Of a stretch of 32,226 bases of DNA, positions 536 through 27,622 are shown one piece after another (position 1 is the stretch's first letter; the number at the start of each line of letters is the position of its first letter). Source of the stretch: a bacterium (GTDB lineage Bacteria > UBP15 > UBA6099); contig JAKQPS010000113.1 of the NCBI GenBank assembly GCA_029564595.1, positions 1 to 32,226 on the forward strand, written 5' to 3'. The position numbers were made by a program, and so were the translations under genes. The notes below the pieces were generated by a model. The model did not search any database and was not told the origin of the DNA. It worked only from the letters and a program-made list of their open reading frames with translations.

Positions 536-3500
536 CTACTGTCTGTCGGTTTCGACCCAGACGTTGCTCTCGCCGAAAATTCTTCTGGCGATACGCAACA
601 GTTCAGGGCTGTAACGCGCGCCGCTATTGCCGGAGAGAAGGAACTTGCGGGCTTTTTTTCCTTCGTCGATATGAATCACGACATCGTTGTCGCCGCTGTT
701 CGCGTTAAGGAGGCGCTTGAGTTCGCGCACCAACTCCGCCGACTTCTCGTCGCCTGTCGAACCTGCGATTCTAAAATGGACTCTTCGTTTCACTGGCTCG
801 GATTTTTTGCCGGCTTCGGGAGTTTCAAGATAAGGCTCTATTTCATTGCACATCACTCTGTATTCAAGAGTTTCCTCGTCGTCTTCTCCGCCGCCGTTGT
901 CCCTTGATTTTGCCCAGACGCGGCCCTTCACCGCCACCACGTTGTCCTCTCGAACATGATTTGAATATTTTACCCATTCCCTCGGACCGATAGAGACGAG
1001 GATTTTGCCGGTGTAGTCCTCCAGATCGACAAACGCCATCTGGTCGCCTGACTTCAAGTTGAAAGTTTTTACCCGCGATATTGATCCAGCCACCACGACT
1101 TCTCTGCGCTCGGAAGGGTCTATCTCGACCACTTCGACGGCGGAAATATTCGCCTTCTGAGTCAACCACGCTCTGTACGGATCAAGCGGATTGTGGGATA
1201 GATAGAGTCCGATAAGCTCTTTTTCGTCCTGAAGCAGAGTCCTCATTCCGAACTCCTCGATTTGAGGCAGTTCAGGCTCGTAGCATTTGGAGGTCTCTTC
1301 ATCGCCGAAGAGACATGTCTGACCGGAATCCCTGTCGCGCTGGACTTTCTTGCCGTATTCCATCGCTTCTTCGACCGCGGCCATTTTCTGCGCGCGGTTC
1401 CCGTCGATGCCGTCCATTCCTCCGGAGCGTATAAGAGATTCGATGGCTTTGGAGTTGACCGCCCGGAGGTCTACTCTCGCGCAAAACTCGAAAAGGGATT
1501 TGTAATGCCCGTTCTCATCCCTCTCTCGGATAATCGCCTCGATTGCCCCGCCTCCCACGTTTTTCACGGCGGCGAGACCGAAAACGATTTTGTCATCCAC
1601 CGGAGCAAATATTTTCTGCCCGGCGTTTATGTCAGGAGGGGTGACCATGATTTTCATTCTGCGGCATTCGTCAATGTACTTCGCTATCTTCTCGCTGTCG
1701 TCCATTACGCTGGTCAGCAGAGCCGCCATGAACTCGACCGGATAGTTCGCCTTGAGGTAGGCGGTCTGATAAGCGATATAAGCGTAAACGGCGCTGTGGC
1801 TTTTGTTAAAACCGTATCCTGAAAAACTGTCTATCTGGTTGAAAAGAGCCTCCGCAGCGGCCCTGCTTCCAAGAAGCTGCTCGGCGCCGCTGATGAACTT
1901 CACTCCAAGCCTGTCCATATCCTCGCGCTTCTTTTTCGCCATTGCCTTTCTTAGATCATCGGCCTGAGCCAGAGTGAACCCAGCCACGAGGTGCGCGCTC
2001 TGCATCGCCTGTTCCTGATAAAGAAAAACGCCCGAAGTCTCTCTCAAAACAACTTCAAGTTTAGGGTGCTGATATTCAATCATCTTAGGGTCTTTCTTGC
2101 GATTCTCGAAAAACTTGTCCACATCGCCGCCCTGCAGCGGGCCGGGCCGGTTAAGTGCGTTCAGCGCGATAAGGTCTTCTATGCAAGTAGGCTGAAGCCT
2201 CGCGCACAACCGTTTTGCGGTATTGCTTTCAAACTGGAACACGCCGTCCGTTTCTCCGCTGCGGAAAACTTCATACGACTTGTCGTCGTCGAGCGGCAGA
2301 TGATCCAAATCAATTTTTTTGCCAGTTCTTTTTTCAACGTAGCGCGCGGCGTCCGCGAGAACGGTCAGGTTGCGCAGCCCCAGAAAGTCCATCTTGAGCA
2401 GCCCCAAGCTCTCAAGGTCTTCATGGACGAACTGTGTCATCGGGACTTCGTCTTTTGTGGACTGGTAAATCGGAATCAAATCCGTCACGGGCTGGTCGGT
2501 GATAACTACGCCCGCCGCGTGCGTCGATATGTTTCTAGGCAGCCCTTCTATCTGCTTGGATATCCTTAGAAGCTTACCGATATCGGGGTCGTTGTCGTAG
2601 AGATATTTAAGTTCGGGAGTGAAGTTTATCGCGTTTTCGATTGTCACTTTCTGGTCGGGAATCACGAACGGGACAAGCTTGGCGACTTTGTCCACCACAG
2701 GCAGAGGCATACCGAGCACGCGACCCACATCCCTGATGGCCGCCCTCGCCTTCTCGCGACCGAACGTGATTATCATCGCCACTTTGTCTTCGCCGTATTT
2801 GCGTTTGGCGTAGTCGATGACCTCTCCGCGCCGCTCATAGCAGAAGTCCATGTCGATGTCCGGCATGGTGCGCCTGTCGGGATTCAGGAAACGCTCGAAC
2901 AGCAGCCCGTATTTGAGAGGCTCGATTTGAGTGATGTCCAGAGCGTATGCGACGATGCTGCCGGCTACCGAGCCTCTTCCGGGGCCGACGGGTATGCCGT
3001 TTTCCCGCGCGTATCTCAACAAGTCCCACACGATGAGAAAATACTCCGCGAAGCCCATGTCGTTGATGACTTTCAACTCGAACTCCGCGCGTTCTCTGAT
3101 GCTCTTCGTCACCGCCGGATATTTCTTCTCTATGCCTTTGAAAGCGAGTTCGCTTAGATATTCCTTGTCCGTTTTCCCGCCTTCCACCTCGAAATGGGGA
3201 AGTATCGGACGGTTTGATTCAAACGCGAACTCGCAACGTTCCGCTATCTCCGCTGTTATCGCCAGAGCCTCGGGCCTGTCGGCGAAAACATCCATCATTT
3301 CGCGAGCCGATTTCAGATAAAACTCTTTCGACTCGAAACTGAGCCTGTTGGCGTCGTCGAGTGTTTTTCCCTCCTGAACGCACATCATCACGTCCTGCAC
3401 CAGCGCGTCTTCAGGCTGAAGGTAGTGAGAGTCATTCGTCGCCACAAGCGGGATGGACAACTCCCGCGAAAGTTCGATAAGGCCGGCGTTCGCCTTCGAC

Positions 3501-16734: not shown

Positions 16735-18381
16735 TCACTTCGCGAGAGCGGCGGCAATGTCCTCCGCAGGCGTGGATATTGGAGCGATATTGAACTTCTC
16801 GACAAGAACGTTTAGAGCGGCGGGCGTGACGAACGCCGGCAGTGTCGGCCCAAGCTTGATGTTCCTTATGCCCAGATGCAGCAGCGTCAGAAGTATCGCG
16901 ACGGCCTTCTGTTCGTACCATGAGAGTATCATGGACAGCGGGAGGCTGTTTACGTCCGTGCCGAACGCGTCAGCGAGAGCGACGGCGATCATAATAGCAG
17001 AATAGGCGTCGTTGCACTGGCCGATGTCGAGCAGCCGCGGAATCCCGCCGATGTCGCCGAAATCCAGTTTGTTGAATCTATATTTTCCGCATGCGAGAGT
17101 AAGAATGACGCAGTCATTCGGAACGGACTCGGCCAGTTCTGTGTAGTAGCTGCGGCCTGTTTTTGCGCCGTCGCATCCGCCGATGAGGAAGAAATGCTTG
17201 AGCGCGCCCGACTTCACCGCGTCGATGACGGCTCCGGCGACTTTCAACACGGCGTCCCGTCCGAAACCGACGGTGATGAACTGTTCGGGGCCGTCTTCGG
17301 CGAAACCGGGGGCCTCAAGAGCTGCCTCTATCACCGGGGCAAAATTGCGGTCGCTGATGTGTTTGACTCCCGGCCACGCGACCAGCCCGCAGGTGAATAT
17401 TCTTCCTTTGTATTCTTCCTTTGGTTGCTGGATGCAGTTGGTGGTCATCAGCACGGCGCCGGGAAATTCGTCGAACTCCTTCTTCTGGTTCTGCCACGCG
17501 CTGCCGTAGTTGCCGACTAGGTGTTTGTATTTCTTCAGCTTGGGATACGCCAGCGTGGGAAGCATTTCGCCGTGAGTATATACGTTTATCCCCTTGCCTT
17601 CCGTTTGCTTCAGCAACTCTTCGAGGTCAAGAAGGTCATGGCCGGAGACAACGATGGCTTTCCCTTTAACCGGAGTCACTCTTACCTTCGTCGGTTTGGG
17701 ATGGCCGTACGCGTTGGTGTTGGCGGCGTCGAGCAGCTCCATCGTTTTGAGATTCGTTTCGCCAGCTTTCAGCGCGTAACCGAGGAGTTCGTCCACGGTC
17801 GGATTAGGCTTTGTGAGGAAGTTCAACGCGTCATGAATGAAAGCGTATACTGAATCATCAGCAACGCCGAGGATTTGGGCGTGATCGGCATACGCCGACA
17901 TACCCTTCAGCCCATAGGTGATAAGCTCCTGAAGACCGGTGACATCTTCGCCGAGAGAAGCCTTGCGCGTTTCGACGCCGATTTTTTCGCCTTGAGCGAC
18001 AAGACCCGCCACATCGGCGGCAGGCGACCAGTCAGCGGCCCACGCCACGGCGTCGGGCGTCTTACCGGCGGATGCGGCGGCTTTCTCATACAGTGACTTC
18101 GCGCGGCCTTTAAATTCGGCAGCTCGCTTAATCAGCCCGGCCAGCTTCTCCTCGTCGAAGTTCACGTTAGTTACTGTGGTGAAGAGAGCTTCGATTGTGA
18201 ACAGATTGATTTCATTGTCCACAGCGCCCAGTTGCCTTGCCCTGTGAGCGTATGCCCCTATGCCCTTTGTGGCATAAATGAGCAGGTCTTGAAGAGTTGC
18301 TGCCTCGTGAGTTTTGCCGCACACGCCTTTCACTGTGCAGCCGGTCCCTTTAGCGGTTTGTTCGCACTGATAGCAAAACAT
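16735..18381 (-). CDS. hcp: Hybrid-cluster protein (hydroxylamine reductase / NO-detoxifying)
   Basis: Iron-sulfur-oxygen hybrid-cluster protein that reduces hydroxylamine in vitro and is linked to nitric oxide removal and protein S-nitrosylation. It has 548 residues, full length. The N-terminal cluster cysteines are C3, C6, C15 and C21, the Cx2Cx8Cx5C spacing known from strict anaerobes rather than the Cx2Cx11Cx6C of enteric bacteria. Hybrid-cluster landmarks include VSGHDLLDLEELL, NVYTHGEMLP, TTNCIQQP, FTCGLVAWPG, IGGCDGAKTGRSYY, LACGKYRFN and DIGQCNDAYSA. ATG at 18381 has GGAGGA seven bases upstream. It is monocistronic, with its own promoter (18418-18446) and terminator (16619-16651). No dedicated NADH reductase (Hcr) gene is beside it, so the electron donor is unknown. 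Confidence 0.97.
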   Translation of the reverse strand: MFCYQCEQTAKGTGCTVKGVCGKTHEAATLQDLLIYATKGIGAYAHRARQLGAVDNEINLFTIEALFTTVTNVNFDEEKLAGLIKRAAEFKGRAKSLYEKAAASAGKTPDAVAWAADWSPAADVAGLVAQGEKIGVETRKASLGEDVTGLQELITYGLKGMSAYADHAQILGVADDSVYAFIHDALNFLTKPNPTVDELLGYALKAGETNLKTMELLDAANTNAYGHPKPTKVRVTPVKGKAIVVSGHDLLDLEELLKQTEGKGINVYTHGEMLPTLAYPKLKKYKHLVGNYGSAWQNQKKEFDEFPGAVLMTTNCIQQPKEEYKGRIFTCGLVAWPGVKHISDRNFAPVIEAALEAPGFAEDGPEQFITVGFGRDAVLKVAGAVIDAVKSGALKHFFLIGGCDGAKTGRSYYTELAESVPNDCVILTLACGKYRFNKLDFGDIGGIPRLLDIGQCNDAYSAIMIAVALADAFGTDVNSLPLSMILSWYEQKAVAILLTLLHLGIRNIKLGPTLPAFVTPAALNVLVEKFNIAPISTPAEDIAAALAK

Positions 18382-22118: not shown

Positions 22119-22460
22119 TCAACCTATCGCAAAACTTCCGCGTTCCTTCGTCCTGATTCTCACGCACTCGCCGAGATCGACAACAAATATCTTCCCGTCG
22201 CCTATCTGCCCGGTCGATGCGCCTCTGATTATCGCCTCGATAGTGGAATCAACAAAACCGTCGTTCACTGCTATCTCGAGCCTCACTTTTTTGTGCAGGT
22301 TTACCTCTGTAACGACGCCTCGGTATGTAGTGGAATATCCCTTCTGTTGACCGCACCCCAGCGCGTTGGTCACGGACATCTTGTAAACCTCCGCGTCGAA
22401 TAGCGATTTCTTCACATCCGTAAGTTTCTCCGGTTTTACATAAGCAATTATCAGTTTCAT
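22119..22460 (-). CDS. PII-family nitrogen regulator (GlnB/GlnK-like, no Tyr51)
   Basis: Small trimeric sensor of ATP/ADP and 2-oxoglutarate that typically plugs the ammonium transporter encoded beside it. It has 113 residues from ATG at 22460, preceded eight bases earlier by GGAGG; an earlier ATG at 22475 would overlap that site. The fold landmarks are [13 protein letters not shown], the T-loop start [14 protein letters not shown] and the C-terminal signature [11 protein letters not shown]. Aligned from the start with E. coli GlnB, position 46 is Tyr but position 51, the uridylylation site, is Thr. Control is therefore probably by ligand binding rather than uridylylation. It lies 28 bases after amt and is the last gene of the porin-amt-PII operon. 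Confidence 0.93.
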
Positions 22461-22488
22461 AGATGTCGCCTCCAATCGGCCATGTTAG

Positions 22489-23862
22489 TCACTGTGTCGT
22501 AAAAATCTGGAAACCGCTGTAGGACTCGATGCCGTGTTCCTCGATGTCAAGCCCTCGGAGTTCCTCTTCGGGAGAGACTCGGAGTCCGACGACGATTTTG
22601 ATGACGGCAAACAGGACTGACGCGCTGATGAACGACCACGCGAACACACTGACTACGCCTAGCGCCTGCACGCCGAGTTGCGAGAAACCGCCGCCGAAGA
22701 ACAATCCGTCCACTCCGCCGTACTTGGACTGGGCGAAGAGGCCGGCGGCAAGCGTTCCCCACGCGCCGCAAATGCCGTGTACGGATATCGCGCCGACCGG
22801 GTCGTCTATCTTCAGGATTCTGTCAACAAACTCTACCGCAAGAACAACCAGAACGCCCGCCACAGCTCCGATGATGACCGCGCTTGACGGAGACACGTTG
22901 GCGCAGGGAGCGGTGATTCCCACAAGGCCCGCAAGCGCGCCGTTAAGAGTCATGCTAGTGTCGGGTTTGCCATGCCATATCCAGACTGTGATCATTGCCA
23001 CGACGGCTCCGGTTGCGGCGGCGAGGTTGGTCGTCACGGCGATGACCCCTATGCTGAGGTTCATTCCCGATGTCGTGCTGCCTGCATTGAAACCGAACCA
23101 GCCGAACCAGAGAATGAAGACGCCGAGAGCGGCCAGCGGGATGTTGTGTCCGGGAATGGCGTTTATCTTGCCGTTCGGGCCGTATTTGCCCAGCCTCGGC
23201 CCGACCGCGATCGCTCCGGCAAGCGCGCACCATCCTCCGACAGAATGCACGACTGCGGATCCCGCGAAATCTATCATTCCCAGTTTGCTCAGCCATCCGC
23301 CTCCCCATACCCAATGCCCAACCACCGGATAGATGAGAGCGCAGATGAAAACGCAGTAGAATATGTAACTCTTGAATTTCGTTCTTTCAGCCATAGCTCC
23401 TGAAACTATCGTCGCGGCTGTGGCTGCAAATACTACCTGAAAAAGCCAGAAAGCGATTTTCCACATCCCGTCTCCCGTGGACGGGTCCCCGTCGGAAAGG
23501 AAAAAACCGCTCGTTCCGAAAAGGCCTCCGCGCGAGGTTCCGAACATAATGCCGAACCCGATCGCCCAGTACGCGAGCGAGCCTATGCTGAAATCCATCA
23601 GGTTCTTCATCAGGATGTTCGCGGCGTTTTTCGCGCGAGTGAAACCGACCTCAAGCATTGCGAATCCGGGTTGCATGAAAAACACCAAGAACGCGCATAC
23701 CAGCATCCAGACGGTGTTAATAGATGTCTGGGACGCCGCAATCTGTTCGGCGTTGCTCTGAACAGTCGGCGCGGCTTCGACATCGCCGAACGCGGTGGCG
23801 CAAACCGCCAGCAGGGGCGCCGCAAACATAATGCTTCTCATTGCGATCTTTCTGAATTTCAT
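22489..23862 (-). CDS. amt: Ammonium transporter (Amt/MEP/Rh family)
   Basis: Trimeric inner-membrane channel that takes up ammonium. It has 457 residues. The N-terminus (SIMFAAPLLAVCATAFGDVEA) is a cleavable signal peptide, as in many Amt proteins, followed by about eleven membrane segments. The pore twin histidines are seen in VVHSVGGW (H206) and ISVHGICGAWG (H362). The external phenylalanine gate is in QVVFAATAATI, and FGWFGFNAGS is the family signature. The cytosolic tail is acidic. ATG at 23862 has GGAGG seven bases upstream. The porin-like gene ends 47 bases before and the PII gene starts 28 bases after, so all three should be co-transcribed from the sigma-54 promoter at 24702-24717, which implies induction under nitrogen limitation. 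Confidence 0.96.
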   Translation of the reverse strand: MKFRKIAMRSIMFAAPLLAVCATAFGDVEAAPTVQSNAEQIAASQTSINTVWMLVCAFLVFFMQPGFAMLEVGFTRAKNAANILMKNLMDFSIGSLAYWAIGFGIMFGTSRGGLFGTSGFFLSDGDPSTGDGMWKIAFWLFQVVFAATAATIVSGAMAERTKFKSYIFYCVFICALIYPVVGHWVWGGGWLSKLGMIDFAGSAVVHSVGGWCALAGAIAVGPRLGKYGPNGKINAIPGHNIPLAALGVFILWFGWFGFNAGSTTSGMNLSIGVIAVTTNLAAATGAVVAMITVWIWHGKPDTSMTLNGALAGLVGITAPCANVSPSSAVIIGAVAGVLVVLAVEFVDRILKIDDPVGAISVHGICGAWGTLAAGLFAQSKYGGVDGLFFGGGFSQLGVQALGVVSVFAWSFISASVLFAVIKIVVGLRVSPEEELRGLDIEEHGIESYSGFQIFTTQ

Positions 23863-23909: not shown

Positions 23910-24638
23910 TTAGAAACTGAAACCTATTCCGACTCCCGCCCAGAACTCGTTCTCCGTGTTGGCTCTGTCGCCGGGAGTAATAACGTAATTCAATGACGGG
24001 ACTATCTCGAAGTCTCCCGCCTGAAAGCTCATTGAAGCGCCTATGTCGATGTTGCTCACGCCCGGCTCCAGCCCCCATTGTCCGTCGCTGTAGCCGAGTC
24101 CAGCGCTGAGCGAGAGAGCCGGGATTCCCGCTTCTCCGCCTATCGGTATGTCTCGGCTTATCCCGGCGTAAGCGTACACGCCGTCTCCGGCGTCCCAATC
24201 CGAGTACACTGTCATGGACGGAGACAGAAACGCGTCCGGCCATTCGAGCGTCACAAAGGATTCCTGCGATTCGTCCGCGATGCTTGGGAATGTGTAATAT
24301 ATATGGCCCACAGTCCATTCAGCGCCGGGCATCAACTTCGACGAAGCCGAATAGCTCAGCGTGTAATCCAGTTCATCCAGTTCGGAATCCCCGTCCAACC
24401 CGTATGACATCCACATATTGAAAGCCCATCCGCTCGACCAACTGAAATCGAGAGACGGCTGAATGGCCGGTTCGTTGTCCGCCAGCAGGTCCTGTCCGCG
24501 CCAGATGTATTTCGACACCCACGCGACGCTTCCGCTCACATCCGCTTCCGCTCTCGCCGCCCCGGCGGACATCGCCAGAACGGTCAGGGCCATTGCCGCC
24601 GCCCCTACTGCTTTCATCCACTTTCTTTTCCTGCTCAT
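23910..24638 (-). CDS. Putative outer-membrane beta-barrel porin (TorF/TIGR02001-like)
   Basis: A 242-residue exported protein. A basic n-region (MSRKRKWMK) and hydrophobic core (AVGAAAMALTVLAMSAGAARA) form a Sec signal peptide cleaved before EADVSG. The mature part has alternating beta strands with aromatic girdles, the near-N-terminal motif SKYIWRGQ of the TorF putative-porin family, and a terminal phenylalanine, the usual sign of an outer-membrane barrel. ATG at 24638 is chosen over the GTG at 24644 because AAGGAGGC lies eight bases before the ATG but only about two before the GTG. It is the first gene of the operon with amt and PII. It may supply a small-solute route across the outer membrane for nitrogen compounds. 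The solute is not known. Confidence 0.85.
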   Translation of the reverse strand: MSRKRKWMKAVGAAAMALTVLAMSAGAARAEADVSGSVAWVSKYIWRGQDLLADNEPAIQPSLDFSWSSGWAFNMWMSYGLDGDSELDELDYTLSYSASSKLMPGAEWTVGHIYYTFPSIADESQESFVTLEWPDAFLSPSMTVYSDWDAGDGVYAYAGISRDIPIGGEAGIPALSLSAGLGYSDGQWGLEPGVSNIDIGASMSFQAGDFEIVPSLNYVITPGDRANTENEFWAGVGIGFSF

Positions 24639-24701
24639 TTCCACTGCCTCCTTGGTTTTTCGTCGCTGCTCATATTTCCGCGCGACTTTTTCTTTATGTA
24701 A

Positions 24702-24717
24702 TGCAATTGGGATACCA
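24702..24717 (-). promoter_or_regulatory. Sigma-54 (-24/-12) promoter of the porin-amt-PII operon
   Basis: The minus strand reads TGGTATCCCAATTGCA. It has the invariant GG and GC dinucleotides exactly ten bases apart, and TTGCA is a perfect -12 element. TGGTAT is also, from memory, the -24 element of the Klebsiella nifH promoter. Transcription would start near 24691, 53 bases before the porin ATG. The divergent gene encodes a sigma-54 activator and two dyads lie 146 and 176 bases upstream. Confidence 0.8.
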
Positions 24718-24829
24718 CAGAATAAAAAAGTGAGGCGATGGGTGATGCTGTCATTAAAAATGCTTTCATTAAAAGAAATAAATAAATATGTGGGAAGAAG
24801 GAATTGAAGTGTTTACGCGCCGCAATGTG

Positions 24830-24843
24830 GCACAATTTTGTGT
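24830..24843. promoter_or_regulatory. Operator/enhancer dyad A (GCACAA-N2-TTGTGT)
   Basis: A near-perfect dyad with arms CACAA/TTGTG around TT. Its centre is 30 bases from that of dyad B, about three helical turns. It lies at about -146 from the sigma-54 start of the porin-amt-PII operon, a normal distance for an activator site. The pattern GCAC-N6-GTGT is close to, but one base shorter than, the NtrC site GCAC-N7-GTGC. Confidence 0.65.
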
Positions 24844-24851
24844 CGCCGGGA

Positions 24852-24879
24852 TTGTAGCGGCACAATATTGTGCTATTAT
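24852..24879 (+). promoter_or_regulatory. Putative sigma-70 promoter of the NifA-like activator
   Basis: TATTAT (24874-24879) is a good -10. The best -35 at a suitable distance is TTGTAG (24852-24857), with a 16-base spacer and only three matches. The spacer is filled almost exactly by dyad B, which suggests that bound activator would block RNA polymerase here. The predicted start is near 24886. Confidence 0.4.
24860..24873. promoter_or_regulatory. Operator/enhancer dyad B, perfect palindrome GCACAATATTGTGC
   Basis: A 14-base perfect palindrome in the divergent intergenic region. It sits at about -176 from the sigma-54 start of the porin-amt-PII operon and between the putative -35 and -10 of the divergent regulator gene. 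It could thus serve both as an enhancer for one operon and an autoregulatory operator for the other. Confidence 0.7.
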
Positions 24880-24914
24880 TGCAAGGCAAACTGATTTGAA
24901 AGGCGGCAACTGAG

Positions 24915-26450
24915 TTGCGACCGGACAAGATTGAGAGTATTGAACTATCAACTATATATAGAGTCGCCGGTTTGCTCGGAACCGGGAAAGACTTGCGCGG
25001 AACTCTCGTAAGAACCCTCGAACTGCTGGCGTCGGAAATGGGAATGAGACGGGGGATGATAACGCTGCTGCCGGGCAATTCGAGCGAGGCGCATCTGGAC
25101 ATTGCTCCGGCGATGAACGGCGCGGATGTCGATAAGGTCGTCTATGGTCCCGGAGAAGGGATAACCGGGCGCGTGTTGTCCGACGGCGAGCCGATTGTCA
25201 TACCGAATCTAGGTAAAGAGCCGGGTTTTCTCGACCGCGCTGGTCTCAGAAAAAACGAAGACCTTTCAAAAATGTCTTTTATCTGCGTTCCGGTCAGATT
25301 CGGCGAGAATGTTATCGGCGCTCTGTCCGTGGACATTGAGGCCTGCGACGGCGAAGAGTTGGAAGAGATGACAAGGTTTCTGTGCGGCGTGGCAGACATG
25401 ATAGCGCCCGGCGTCGAGGCAAGGAGGAAGGAAGACGAAAGAAAGCGGCTCGAAATCGAAAACATAGGATTAAAAAAGCAGATAGAGCTTAAGTCAAAAC
25501 CTTCGAATATCATAGGAAATTCGAGAGTGATGGACAGCGTTTATTTATTGATAAATCAGGTGGCGGACAGCGGGGCGACGGCGCTTATAACAGGCGAGAC
25601 CGGCACGGGGAAAGAGCTTGCCGCGGCTGCGATACACAACGCAAGCCCCCGGCGGGCGATGCCTTTCGTTGCGGTAAGCTGCGCCGCGCTCCCGGAAACC
25701 CTGCTGGAGAGCGAGCTTTTCGGACATGAAAAAGGCGCGTTCACGGGAGCGCACGAGAGACGGGCCGGGAAGTTCGAGCAAGCCGCGGGCGGGTCCGTCT
25801 TCCTCGACGAAATCGGCGAAATGAGCCTTTCGTCCCAAGCCAAGCTTCTGCGCGTTCTACAGACGAAGGAAGTCGAGAGGCTGGGCGGCGACAAACCGAT
25901 TAGAGCAAACGTCAGGATAATCGCCGCCACGAACCGCGACCTCGAGCGCGCGGTGACAAACGGGGAATTCAGGGCGGACCTTTTTTACCGTCTCAACGTG
26001 TTTCCGATACACATGCCGCCTCTGCGCGAGCGGGGCGCCGACATCATGCTTCTGGCCGACCACTTCGTTCACAAGTATTCCGAAGAGTTCGGCAAAAAAG
26101 TGGAGCGGATATGTTCGCCTGCCATCGACGCGCTTATGGCATATCACTGGCCGGGCAACGTGAGAGAGCTTGAGAACTGCGTGGAACGCGCCGTGCTGTT
26201 GAGCCAAGACGGAGTGATACATTCATATAATCTCCCCCCGTCGCTGCGCATGAGAACGACGGAAGCGAAAACTGAAAAGGCCGGCTCTCTCGAATCGCTG
26301 CTTGAAGCGTACGAACGAGACCTGATAGAAGAAGCCGTCAAATACGCCGGAGGCAACCAGTCCGCCGCCGCCCGCGAACTCGGCACGACCAAACGCGTCA
26401 TTCAGTACAAAACCGCAAAATACGGAATTGATTGCAAGAAATACAAGTGA
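24915..26450 (+). CDS. Sigma-54-dependent enhancer-binding protein, NifA-like (GAF-AAA-Fis)
   Basis: Transcription activator for sigma-54 RNA polymerase, 511 residues. The N-terminal segment [13 protein letters not shown] leads into a GAF domain (about 20-165; [31 protein letters not shown]). A short linker helix precedes the AAA+ domain (about 195-425). That domain contains Walker A GETGTGKE (227-234), the sigma-54 contact loop GAFTGA (274-279), Walker [25 protein letters not shown] and [11 protein letters not shown]. The C-terminal Fis-type helix-turn-helix is near 478-505 ([25 protein letters not shown]). The order matches NifA; no NifA-type cysteine linker is visible. The start is TTG at 24915 with a modest AGGCGG upstream. 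The next in-frame Met is residue 42, inside the conserved part. Divergent to the porin-amt-PII operon, it most likely activates that operon. The GAF ligand or PII input is unknown. Confidence 0.92.
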
Positions 26451-26688: not shown

Positions 26689-26723
26689 GAAGCGGCCCGC
26701 TATCTAATAAGGCGGGCCGCTTC
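26689..26723 (+). terminator. Hairpin between the activator and NYN genes: terminator or attenuator
   Basis: A perfect 12-base-pair G+C-rich stem (26689-26700 with 26712-26723, core GCGGCCCGC) with an 11-base loop. It is followed by GCATTTT on the plus strand and CTATTTTT on the minus strand, and outer A and T runs extend the pairing imperfectly. It could end the activator transcript. As it also lies downstream of a strong promoter, it may attenuate expression of the NYN gene. Confidence 0.65.
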
Positions 26724-26740
26724 GCATTTTGGGAGGCGGC

Positions 26741-27622
26741 ATGAACAAGTTTTCCGTATTCATTGATGGCGAATTCTTGTTTTTTACTTTTAAAAGCATG
26801 GGCATTCAGGAAAAAGACATCGACTGGCACGCATTTCATGGACTTATTAGAAATAAAATCGAAAACTACACTAACGCGCGTCCGATGGTAGGCAGAATAC
26901 ATATATTTAAAGCCGAAAGCGTTGCTTTTTTTCCGGTGAAACGCAATGAATGGTTTAATAATAAACTCAAAAATGACATTAAGGAATACAAGGTTTACGA
27001 TGCCGACAACCGACTAATTACAGATTATGCGTCTTTAACCGAGGATGATATAGAAAAAATACGTTTGAGAGCGGTGACCGATCTGAAGGATTTTAAAGAG
27101 AAATATATGAGCGGAGTTTTGGGTAGATATAGGCACATAACAATTAACAACGCTTTTATTGAGTTGAGCCTGCCCGGATTCGTAAAATATGATCCGATAA
27201 TTGGAAGGCCAATAGAGGAAAAAGGCGTTGATGTCGGAATAGCGACGGATATGATTTTAAAAAGCGATAACTACGATGTGGCCATAATACTTTCGGGCGA
27301 CGCCGATCTGACCCCTGCCATAAAACAGATTAAAAACAAGATGAAATTTGTCTTCCTTTTGAGAGTTTTTAAAGAAAAGCCGCCCAGACCAGTGGGAATA
27401 TCCGATCAGTTATCTCAGCTTGTTGACGGATACATCGATTTCCCATTGTGTGAGATTCCATTTTCTTTTCGCATTAGCTGTGACACGTGCGCAAACACAA
27501 TCAATGTGGATAATTATTTCTTAAGCGATATTAACTTTCTATCAAGAGAAGACGTTCGACTCACTCATACTTGCAAGTGCGGACAAATTCTGGATTTCAA
27601 CAGGACTGTTTTCGAGAATTGA
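26741..27622 (+). CDS. NYN-domain (PIN-like) nuclease with C-terminal zinc ribbon
   Basis: A 293-residue protein of the NYN/LabA (DUF88) class, which usually contains metal-dependent RNases. The acidic active-site pattern is visible: FIDGE near residues 7-11, KGVDVGIATDM near 165, and ILSGDADL near 185. The canonical asparagine of FIDGxN is missing (IDGEFLFF). The last 60 residues hold a probable zinc site, CDTC and then CKCG, a possible nucleic-acid-binding tail. ATG at 26741 is used because GGGAGG lies just before it; a TTG at 26729 would precede that ribosome site. Codon use is clearly A+T-richer than in neighbours (many AAA, AAT, ATA), pointing to acquisition by transfer. It has its own promoter and ends eight bases from the convergent zinc-ribbon gene. 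Target unknown; RNA decay or phage defence are possibilities only. Confidence 0.8.
   Translation: MNKFSVFIDGEFLFFTFKSMGIQEKDIDWHAFHGLIRNKIENYTNARPMVGRIHIFKAESVAFFPVKRNEWFNNKLKNDIKEYKVYDADNRLITDYASLTEDDIEKIRLRAVTDLKDFKEKYMSGVLGRYRHITINNAFIELSLPGFVKYDPIIGRPIEEKGVDVGIATDMILKSDNYDVAIILSGDADLTPAIKQIKNKMKFVFLLRVFKEKPPRPVGISDQLSQLVDGYIDFPLCEIPFSFRISCDTCANTINVDNYFLSDINFLSREDVRLTHTCKCGQILDFNRTVFEN

Follow-up and report, generated by a model that had tools for sequence, protein, structure and literature searches.

Paired dyads and a divergent NifA-like activator suggest a self-regulated sigma-54 circuit for ammonium uptake

Introduction

How ammonium uptake is adjusted in bacteria without NtrBC and GlnD is poorly known. 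The window examined here, by which we mean the whole analyzed stretch of 32,226 nucleotides, raises this question in compact form: regulator, operator, promoter, and candidate signal protein all lie within one small locus, which makes it practicable to reconstruct and test the complete circuit. The original prediction held that the local activator drives ammonium uptake through two dyads of possibly new specificity. The first part is supported: relatives that retain the gene pair also retain the dyads, and in spirochaetes amt is preceded by similar sites. The new specificity is not supported as proposed. Taken as a whole, the locus is best explained by a self-regulated one-component sigma-54 circuit for ammonium uptake, a reading drawn from sequence that we consider probable.

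Paired Dyads Lie between an Ammonium-Uptake Operon and a Divergent Activator Gene

The gap between the porin gene start (24644, minus strand) and the activator gene start (24915, plus strand) is 270 bp long and holds all of the claimed features, which are listed here with the flanking genes.

22119..22475, minus strand: PII protein (GlnB/GlnK type; PF00543)
22489..23862, minus strand: ammonium transporter, Amt (PF00909, 455 bits; TIGR00836, 479 bits versus a cut-off of 343)
23910..24644, minus strand: porin-like outer membrane protein (Gcw_chp/TorF, by domain matches), first gene of the operon
24702..24717, minus strand (read 24717-24702): -24/-12 (sigma-54) element TGGTATCCCAATTGCA of the porin-amt-PII operon
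24830..24843: dyad 1, GCACAATTTTGTGT, proposed activator site, centered at about -146 to the predicted operon start
24852..24857, plus strand: weak -35-like hexamer TTGTAG of the activator gene (3/6 to consensus), predicted from sequence
24860..24873: dyad 2, GCACAATATTGTGC, proposed activator site and proposed operator of the activator's own promoter, centered at about -176
24874..24879, plus strand: -10-like hexamer TATTAT of the activator gene (5/6 to consensus), directly after dyad 2
24915..26450, plus strand: GAF-AAA+(GAFTGA)-Fis enhancer-binding protein, NifA-like and outside the NifA clade (Pfam, NCBIfam, tree)

The -24/-12 element predicted ahead of porin-amt-PII is present with exact GG-N10-GC spacing, and 15 of its 16 bases are invariant among four same-genus genomes; taking the C of GC as -12, the predicted operon start falls at about 24691. 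Two observations count against the best explanation: the element is imperfect (TGGTATC versus TGGCACG), and the best -24/-12 candidate at L046, a locus from another genus, ends in GA instead of GC. The divergent gene encodes the expected GAF-AAA-Fis activator, with GAF, Sigma54_activat, and HTH_8 domains by Pfam and GAFTGA present in the alignment. Together with the RpoN gene found in the genome, the GAFTGA-bearing Sigma54_activat domain and Fis-type helix-turn-helix are the features of a sigma-54 enhancer-binding protein.

Both dyads are found where they had been predicted, with 30 bp between their centers. Dyad 2 is a perfect 14-bp palindrome, one of three such in the whole window. When one mismatch or fewer is allowed, dinucleotide shuffles of the window give 0.09 dyad matches per window by chance; four strand-matches are observed, a number reached in 0/100 shuffles. 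The exact pair ACA-N4-TGT/N20/ACA-N4-TGT occurs a single time in the 4.4-Mb genome, at this locus. A genome-wide scan, which the original prediction had proposed, finds neither single nor paired dyads commoner than a reversed control (five other one-mismatch pairs versus four for the control). The glutamine synthetase loci of the order have neither dyads nor -24/-12 elements in the upstream stretch scanned, and on both grounds we give up a larger regulon for this organism. One further perfect palindrome (C157:31978) and one near match (C112:27215) lie within long open reading frames and are therefore taken as chance.

Dyad 2 occupies 14 of the 16 spacer bases of a weak sigma-70-like candidate promoter of the activator gene. 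The weakness of the -35-like hexamer is a further point against the best explanation. In a generic sigma-70 promoter scan nothing here passes the threshold, so the candidate is based on the -10-like box and on its conserved juxtaposition with the dyad, which recurs at L046 (GCACATTTATGTGT-TATAAT) and in many spirochaete loci (CTACATTTTTGTAG-TAT and similar). The original prediction missed this point. With dyad 2 directly adjoining the -10-like box of the activator gene, autoregulation is probable. An activator that sits on its own promoter while activating a divergent or downstream one is the usual layout of autorepressed enhancer-binding proteins such as PspF.

Global NtrC Control Is Unlikely

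In many bacteria, NtrC drives amt-glnK from paired dyads with GCAC half-sites. One alternative is that the dyads described here are used by a global response regulator of the NtrC type to drive the operon, and the genome does encode many response-regulator activators. However, the best of these scores 488 bits to the ntrC model (TIGR01818), where no protein reaches the cut-off of 558.6, and GlnD was not found (best 32 bits versus a cut-off of 519). The window activator itself has a GAF domain and no receiver domain, and scores 339 bits against the same ntrC cut-off. Neither the NtrC box GCAC-N7-GTGC nor the NifA site TGT-N10-ACA occurs in the gap (24645-24914), which bears out the predicted unlikeness of the dyads to both types; the locus shows neither the spacing nor the receiver domain of the NtrC system. 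The glutamine synthetase genes, usual NtrC targets, are bare of dyads and -24/-12 elements in the stretch scanned, which also speaks against an NtrC-type regulator. Single gene absences are not certain, as the genome is 97% complete. Given no NtrC above cut-off, no GlnD, and no NtrC box in the gap, global control of the operon by NtrC is unlikely, and its action through these particular dyads we regard as very improbable. The circuit looks local, in agreement with the self-contained system that had been proposed.

The Dyads Are Conserved Together with the Gene Pair

Loss of the dyads in relatives that keep the gene pair had been named in advance as evidence against the prediction. We looked for such losses and found that the dyads and their 30-bp spacing are kept in 5/5 relatives with the activator-amt pair (L043, L044, L045, L046, and L048), weakly so in L048. 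In three same-genus genomes the activator is 96-98% identical, porin-amt is kept, as is PII where the contig reaches, and both sites read NAC-N6-GTN or carry one changed base therein at the same 30-bp spacing, with drift in the flanking bases. At greater distance, G004 (L046) has an activator about 63-64% identical, with amt beyond a divergent outer-membrane-protein-like stretch, and dyads AAACATTTTTGTAT and GCACATTTATGTGT at 30-bp spacing. The activator of G006 (L048) is 62-64% identical and accompanied by amt-PII; its dyads GAACAATTTCGTCT and GCACATAATTGTAT stand 30 bp apart and are an imperfect pair, spotted by eye at the expected spacing. In G005, where the activator is present but the 10 kb read contain no amt, the dyads are missing too. 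Across the window's order, dyads and spacing persist along with the gene pair.

In one same-genus genome (G002), some 185 bp are inserted between dyad 2 and the start of the activator gene (L044:3868-4050), and a search of this insertion for inverted repeats found none; the dyads and -10-like box of that genome are intact.

Spirochaete Loci Separate the Proposed Activation and Autoregulation Sites

An alignment search of named genomes finds activator-amt(-PII) loci in Spirochaetes and Verrucomicrobia. Our spirochaete survey covered 296 genomes, of which 83 have a relative at E <= 1e-150 (including longer proteins of about 700 residues), and yielded 30 loci. In 19 of these, amt follows the activator and runs the same way; glutamine synthetase follows it in two more and nifH in one. 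For eight activators, the 1.5 kb read to each side contains none of amt, glnA, and nifH, which counts against the best explanation. Adding L060, L065, and L072 to the 19 gives 22 activator-amt gaps (L165 comes from the same genome as L070 and is counted once). We counted every 3-base gapped palindrome in these gaps, with no motif chosen beforehand. TAC-N6-GTA ranks first, in 20/22 gaps versus a shuffled mean of 1.14, followed by ACA-N4-TGT, which is the same site, and by GCA-N7-TGC, which is the -24/-12 element itself (16/22 gaps). By a CTACA-N4-TGTAG yardstick there are 42 strong sites versus 2.0 in shuffled gaps, and 14 adjacent pairs 28-32 bp apart versus 0.005, nearly all of them at 30 or 31 bp. 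These counts, the pairing, and the -24/-12 elements indicate that the window's build is a general feature of activator-amt loci.

The spirochaete loci also bear on what the dyads are for. Dyad 2 occupies a place typical of repressor sites, inside the spacer of the activator promoter, and palindromes of such length are common to many regulator families. Both points would suit an operator of some other, unlinked regulator, such as one that represses the activator gene, with the NifA-like protein binding elsewhere. However, pairs 30-31 bp apart stand about 90-200 bp upstream of amt -24/-12 elements in many unrelated loci, the NifA-like gene is the regulator common to all of them, and the spirochaete amt sites follow the activator gene, away from its promoter, which means that this promoter cannot be all they serve. 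We thus find an unlinked regulator unlikely. The dyads could instead serve autoregulation only, and amt activation would then proceed from other sites or from solution. Since a single intergenic region houses both functions in the window, position alone cannot tell them apart there. The colinear spirochaete loci do separate them, since the amt gap has its own dyads and many loci have another dyad at the start of the activator gene, which makes a purely autoregulatory role distinctly unlikely. From the sequence evidence we strongly infer that the local activator binds the candidate dyad sites.

Other neighbors of the activator family were seen in the course of the survey. The nifH gene of one spirochaete is preceded by a strong -24/-12 element with paired dyads of this kind upstream of it (L159:3128-3173 and 3262-3280), and that of another has a similar arrangement with less regular dyads (L146:1199-1403); given these arrangements, the same family may also run nitrogenase in both. 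Activator relatives adjoin genes for GlnD-type uridylyltransferase, glutamate synthase, or type III glutamine synthetase at L063:170-967, L188:2966-4480, L195:2-1480, and L073:6013-8322, with a divergent layout and paired dyads ahead of the GlnD-type gene at L063. A verrucomicrobial locus (L061:6984-11496) has two tandem amt-PII pairs downstream of the activator.

The Activator Resembles NifA and AnfA/VnfA

The window protein resembles NifA in domain layout, with 37-42% identity. It nevertheless differs from NifA, which has another recognition helix and site (TGT-N10-ACA) and forms a separate, fully supported clade: 13 sequences, including all annotated NifA proteins in the tree, group with support 1.0 to the exclusion of the window protein. 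We rejected NifA identity on four grounds, namely a score of 489.2 bits, below the cut-off of 528.85, to the NCBIfam nifA model; the position outside the clade; a gap free of TGT-N10-ACA; and no nitrogenase found, the best nifH-type score in G000-G003 being 28 bits against a cut-off of 394. On these grounds the protein is better called a NifA/VnfA-like ammonium-assimilation activator.

AnfA and VnfA of Rhodobacter capsulatus and Azotobacter vinelandii share its GAF-AAA-Fis layout, sigma-54 dependence, and two dyads of the same geometry upstream of -24/-12. They control alternative nitrogenase, whereas the window circuit would target ammonium uptake in a genome with no nifH-type protein detected. 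VnfA-like activators have been noted across 11 phyla/classes, tied to nitrogenase (PMC3162934). A presumed DVUA0143-type relative, whose N-terminal domain is reported to be AnfA/VnfA-like, falls within the NifA clade of our tree, which has no AnfA or VnfA sequences.

One-component activators for nitrogen have also been described elsewhere. Desulfovibrio vulgaris DVU1949 is a computationally predicted one-component sigma-54 activator of operons for nitrogen metabolism and transport, and its autoregulation has been proposed (PMC4641369); it resembles the proposed window circuit in each of these respects, its role being a prediction only. Presumed DVU1949 homologues, recognized by iorAB upstream, form a separate clade at about 44% identity to the window protein, and neither the 400 bp upstream nor the 500 bp downstream of them contains paired dyads of this kind. 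On the tree and the absent dyads we rejected DVU1949 as a direct ortholog, and there is no iorAB next to the window gene. Leptospira EbpA, a GAF-type sigma-54 activator, is experimentally required for amtB expression and for growth under nitrogen limitation, and resembles the window activator in type, sigma factor, and proposed ammonium transporter target; it is described as FhlA-like with two GAF domains, unlike the window activator (PMC12655853). In the literature searched we met neither such operators ahead of spirochaete amt genes nor this gene pair. The parts are familiar; for the operator, its cross-phylum pairing with amt, and the autoregulatory overlap, we found no earlier account there.

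Operator Outer Bases and Recognition Helix Appear to Vary in Step

For AnfA, the published consensus is TAC-N6-GTA; each promoter has two such sites, which have been examined by mutation and gel shift, and VnfA sites are GTAC-N6-GTAC (PMC7294313). The window has the same paired AC-N6-GT geometry upstream of -24/-12; the exact TAC/GTA outer base of AnfA is absent from the window and present in the spirochaete homologues. The claim of a new specificity was therefore too strong: CAC-N6-GTG shares the AnfA geometry and is not a new kind of site, with only the outer bases differing (GC/GC-like in the window versus T-A in AnfA). The window's GCAC version is an outer-base variant paired with a different recognition helix. 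That helix is TKRxIQYK in the window's class, versus TERxMGLR in the spirochaete class and TPRQ in most NifA proteins. Half-sites of the window's class, gathered by hand from scans, start with CT in 0/30 cases versus 55/86 in spirochaetes, a comparison whose p-value is indicative only, as neither half-sites nor relatives are independent. Helix and outer bases appear to vary in step, which is a testable pairing and not a proof. Such a paired change offers a direct test bed for DNA choice by Fis-type domains.

A Probable One-Component Circuit

In the self-regulated circuit that we favor, the divergently encoded activator would bind both NAC-N6-GTN dyads as dimers, about three helical turns apart. 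These dimers would assemble a hexamer that acts at a distance to remodel RNA polymerase-sigma54 at the -24/-12 element of porin-amt-PII. Because dyad 2 lies against the -10-like box, activator bound there should limit its own synthesis, and we hold this autorepression with moderate confidence. The signal would most simply be nitrogen state. AnfA is reportedly inhibited by unmodified PII, probably via its GAF domain, in Rhodopseudomonas palustris (PMC12093980). By analogy, the operon's own unmodified PII might inhibit the GAF domain in nitrogen excess, with no GlnD needed; we put this forward only weakly. Alignment to solved PII proteins places Thr in this PII at the position of the uridylylated Tyr51.

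We extend this reading tentatively, with somewhat more doubt than confidence, to a NifA-like and possibly PII-gated one-component activator family of several phyla, non-fixers included, that would replace NtrB-NtrC-GlnD in ammonium assimilation. Its operator would change with the helix, GCAC/AACA-type sites going with T-K-R-x-I-Q-Y-K and CTAC-N6-GTAG with T-E-R-x-M-G-L-R. If the circuit is as proposed, many 'NifA' annotations in uncultured, non-fixing bacteria would denote regulators of ammonium assimilation, and nitrogen-fixation calls resting on such annotations would be wrong.

Neighboring Genes

A TorF/Gcw_chp porin-like gene stands ahead of amt in the window's genus (23910-24644) and also outside the window's order, at L049:6220-6744, hinting at an outer-membrane route for ammonium. 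Downstream of the activator, the window encodes an NYN-domain protein without any NCBIfam match (26694-27622), and a hairpin, GCGGCCCGC...GCGGGCCGC, lies immediately ahead of its gene. Next to argG, about 3.7 kb past the end of the operon that carries PII, the window encodes a hydroxylamine reductase (hybrid cluster protein; 16735-18381).
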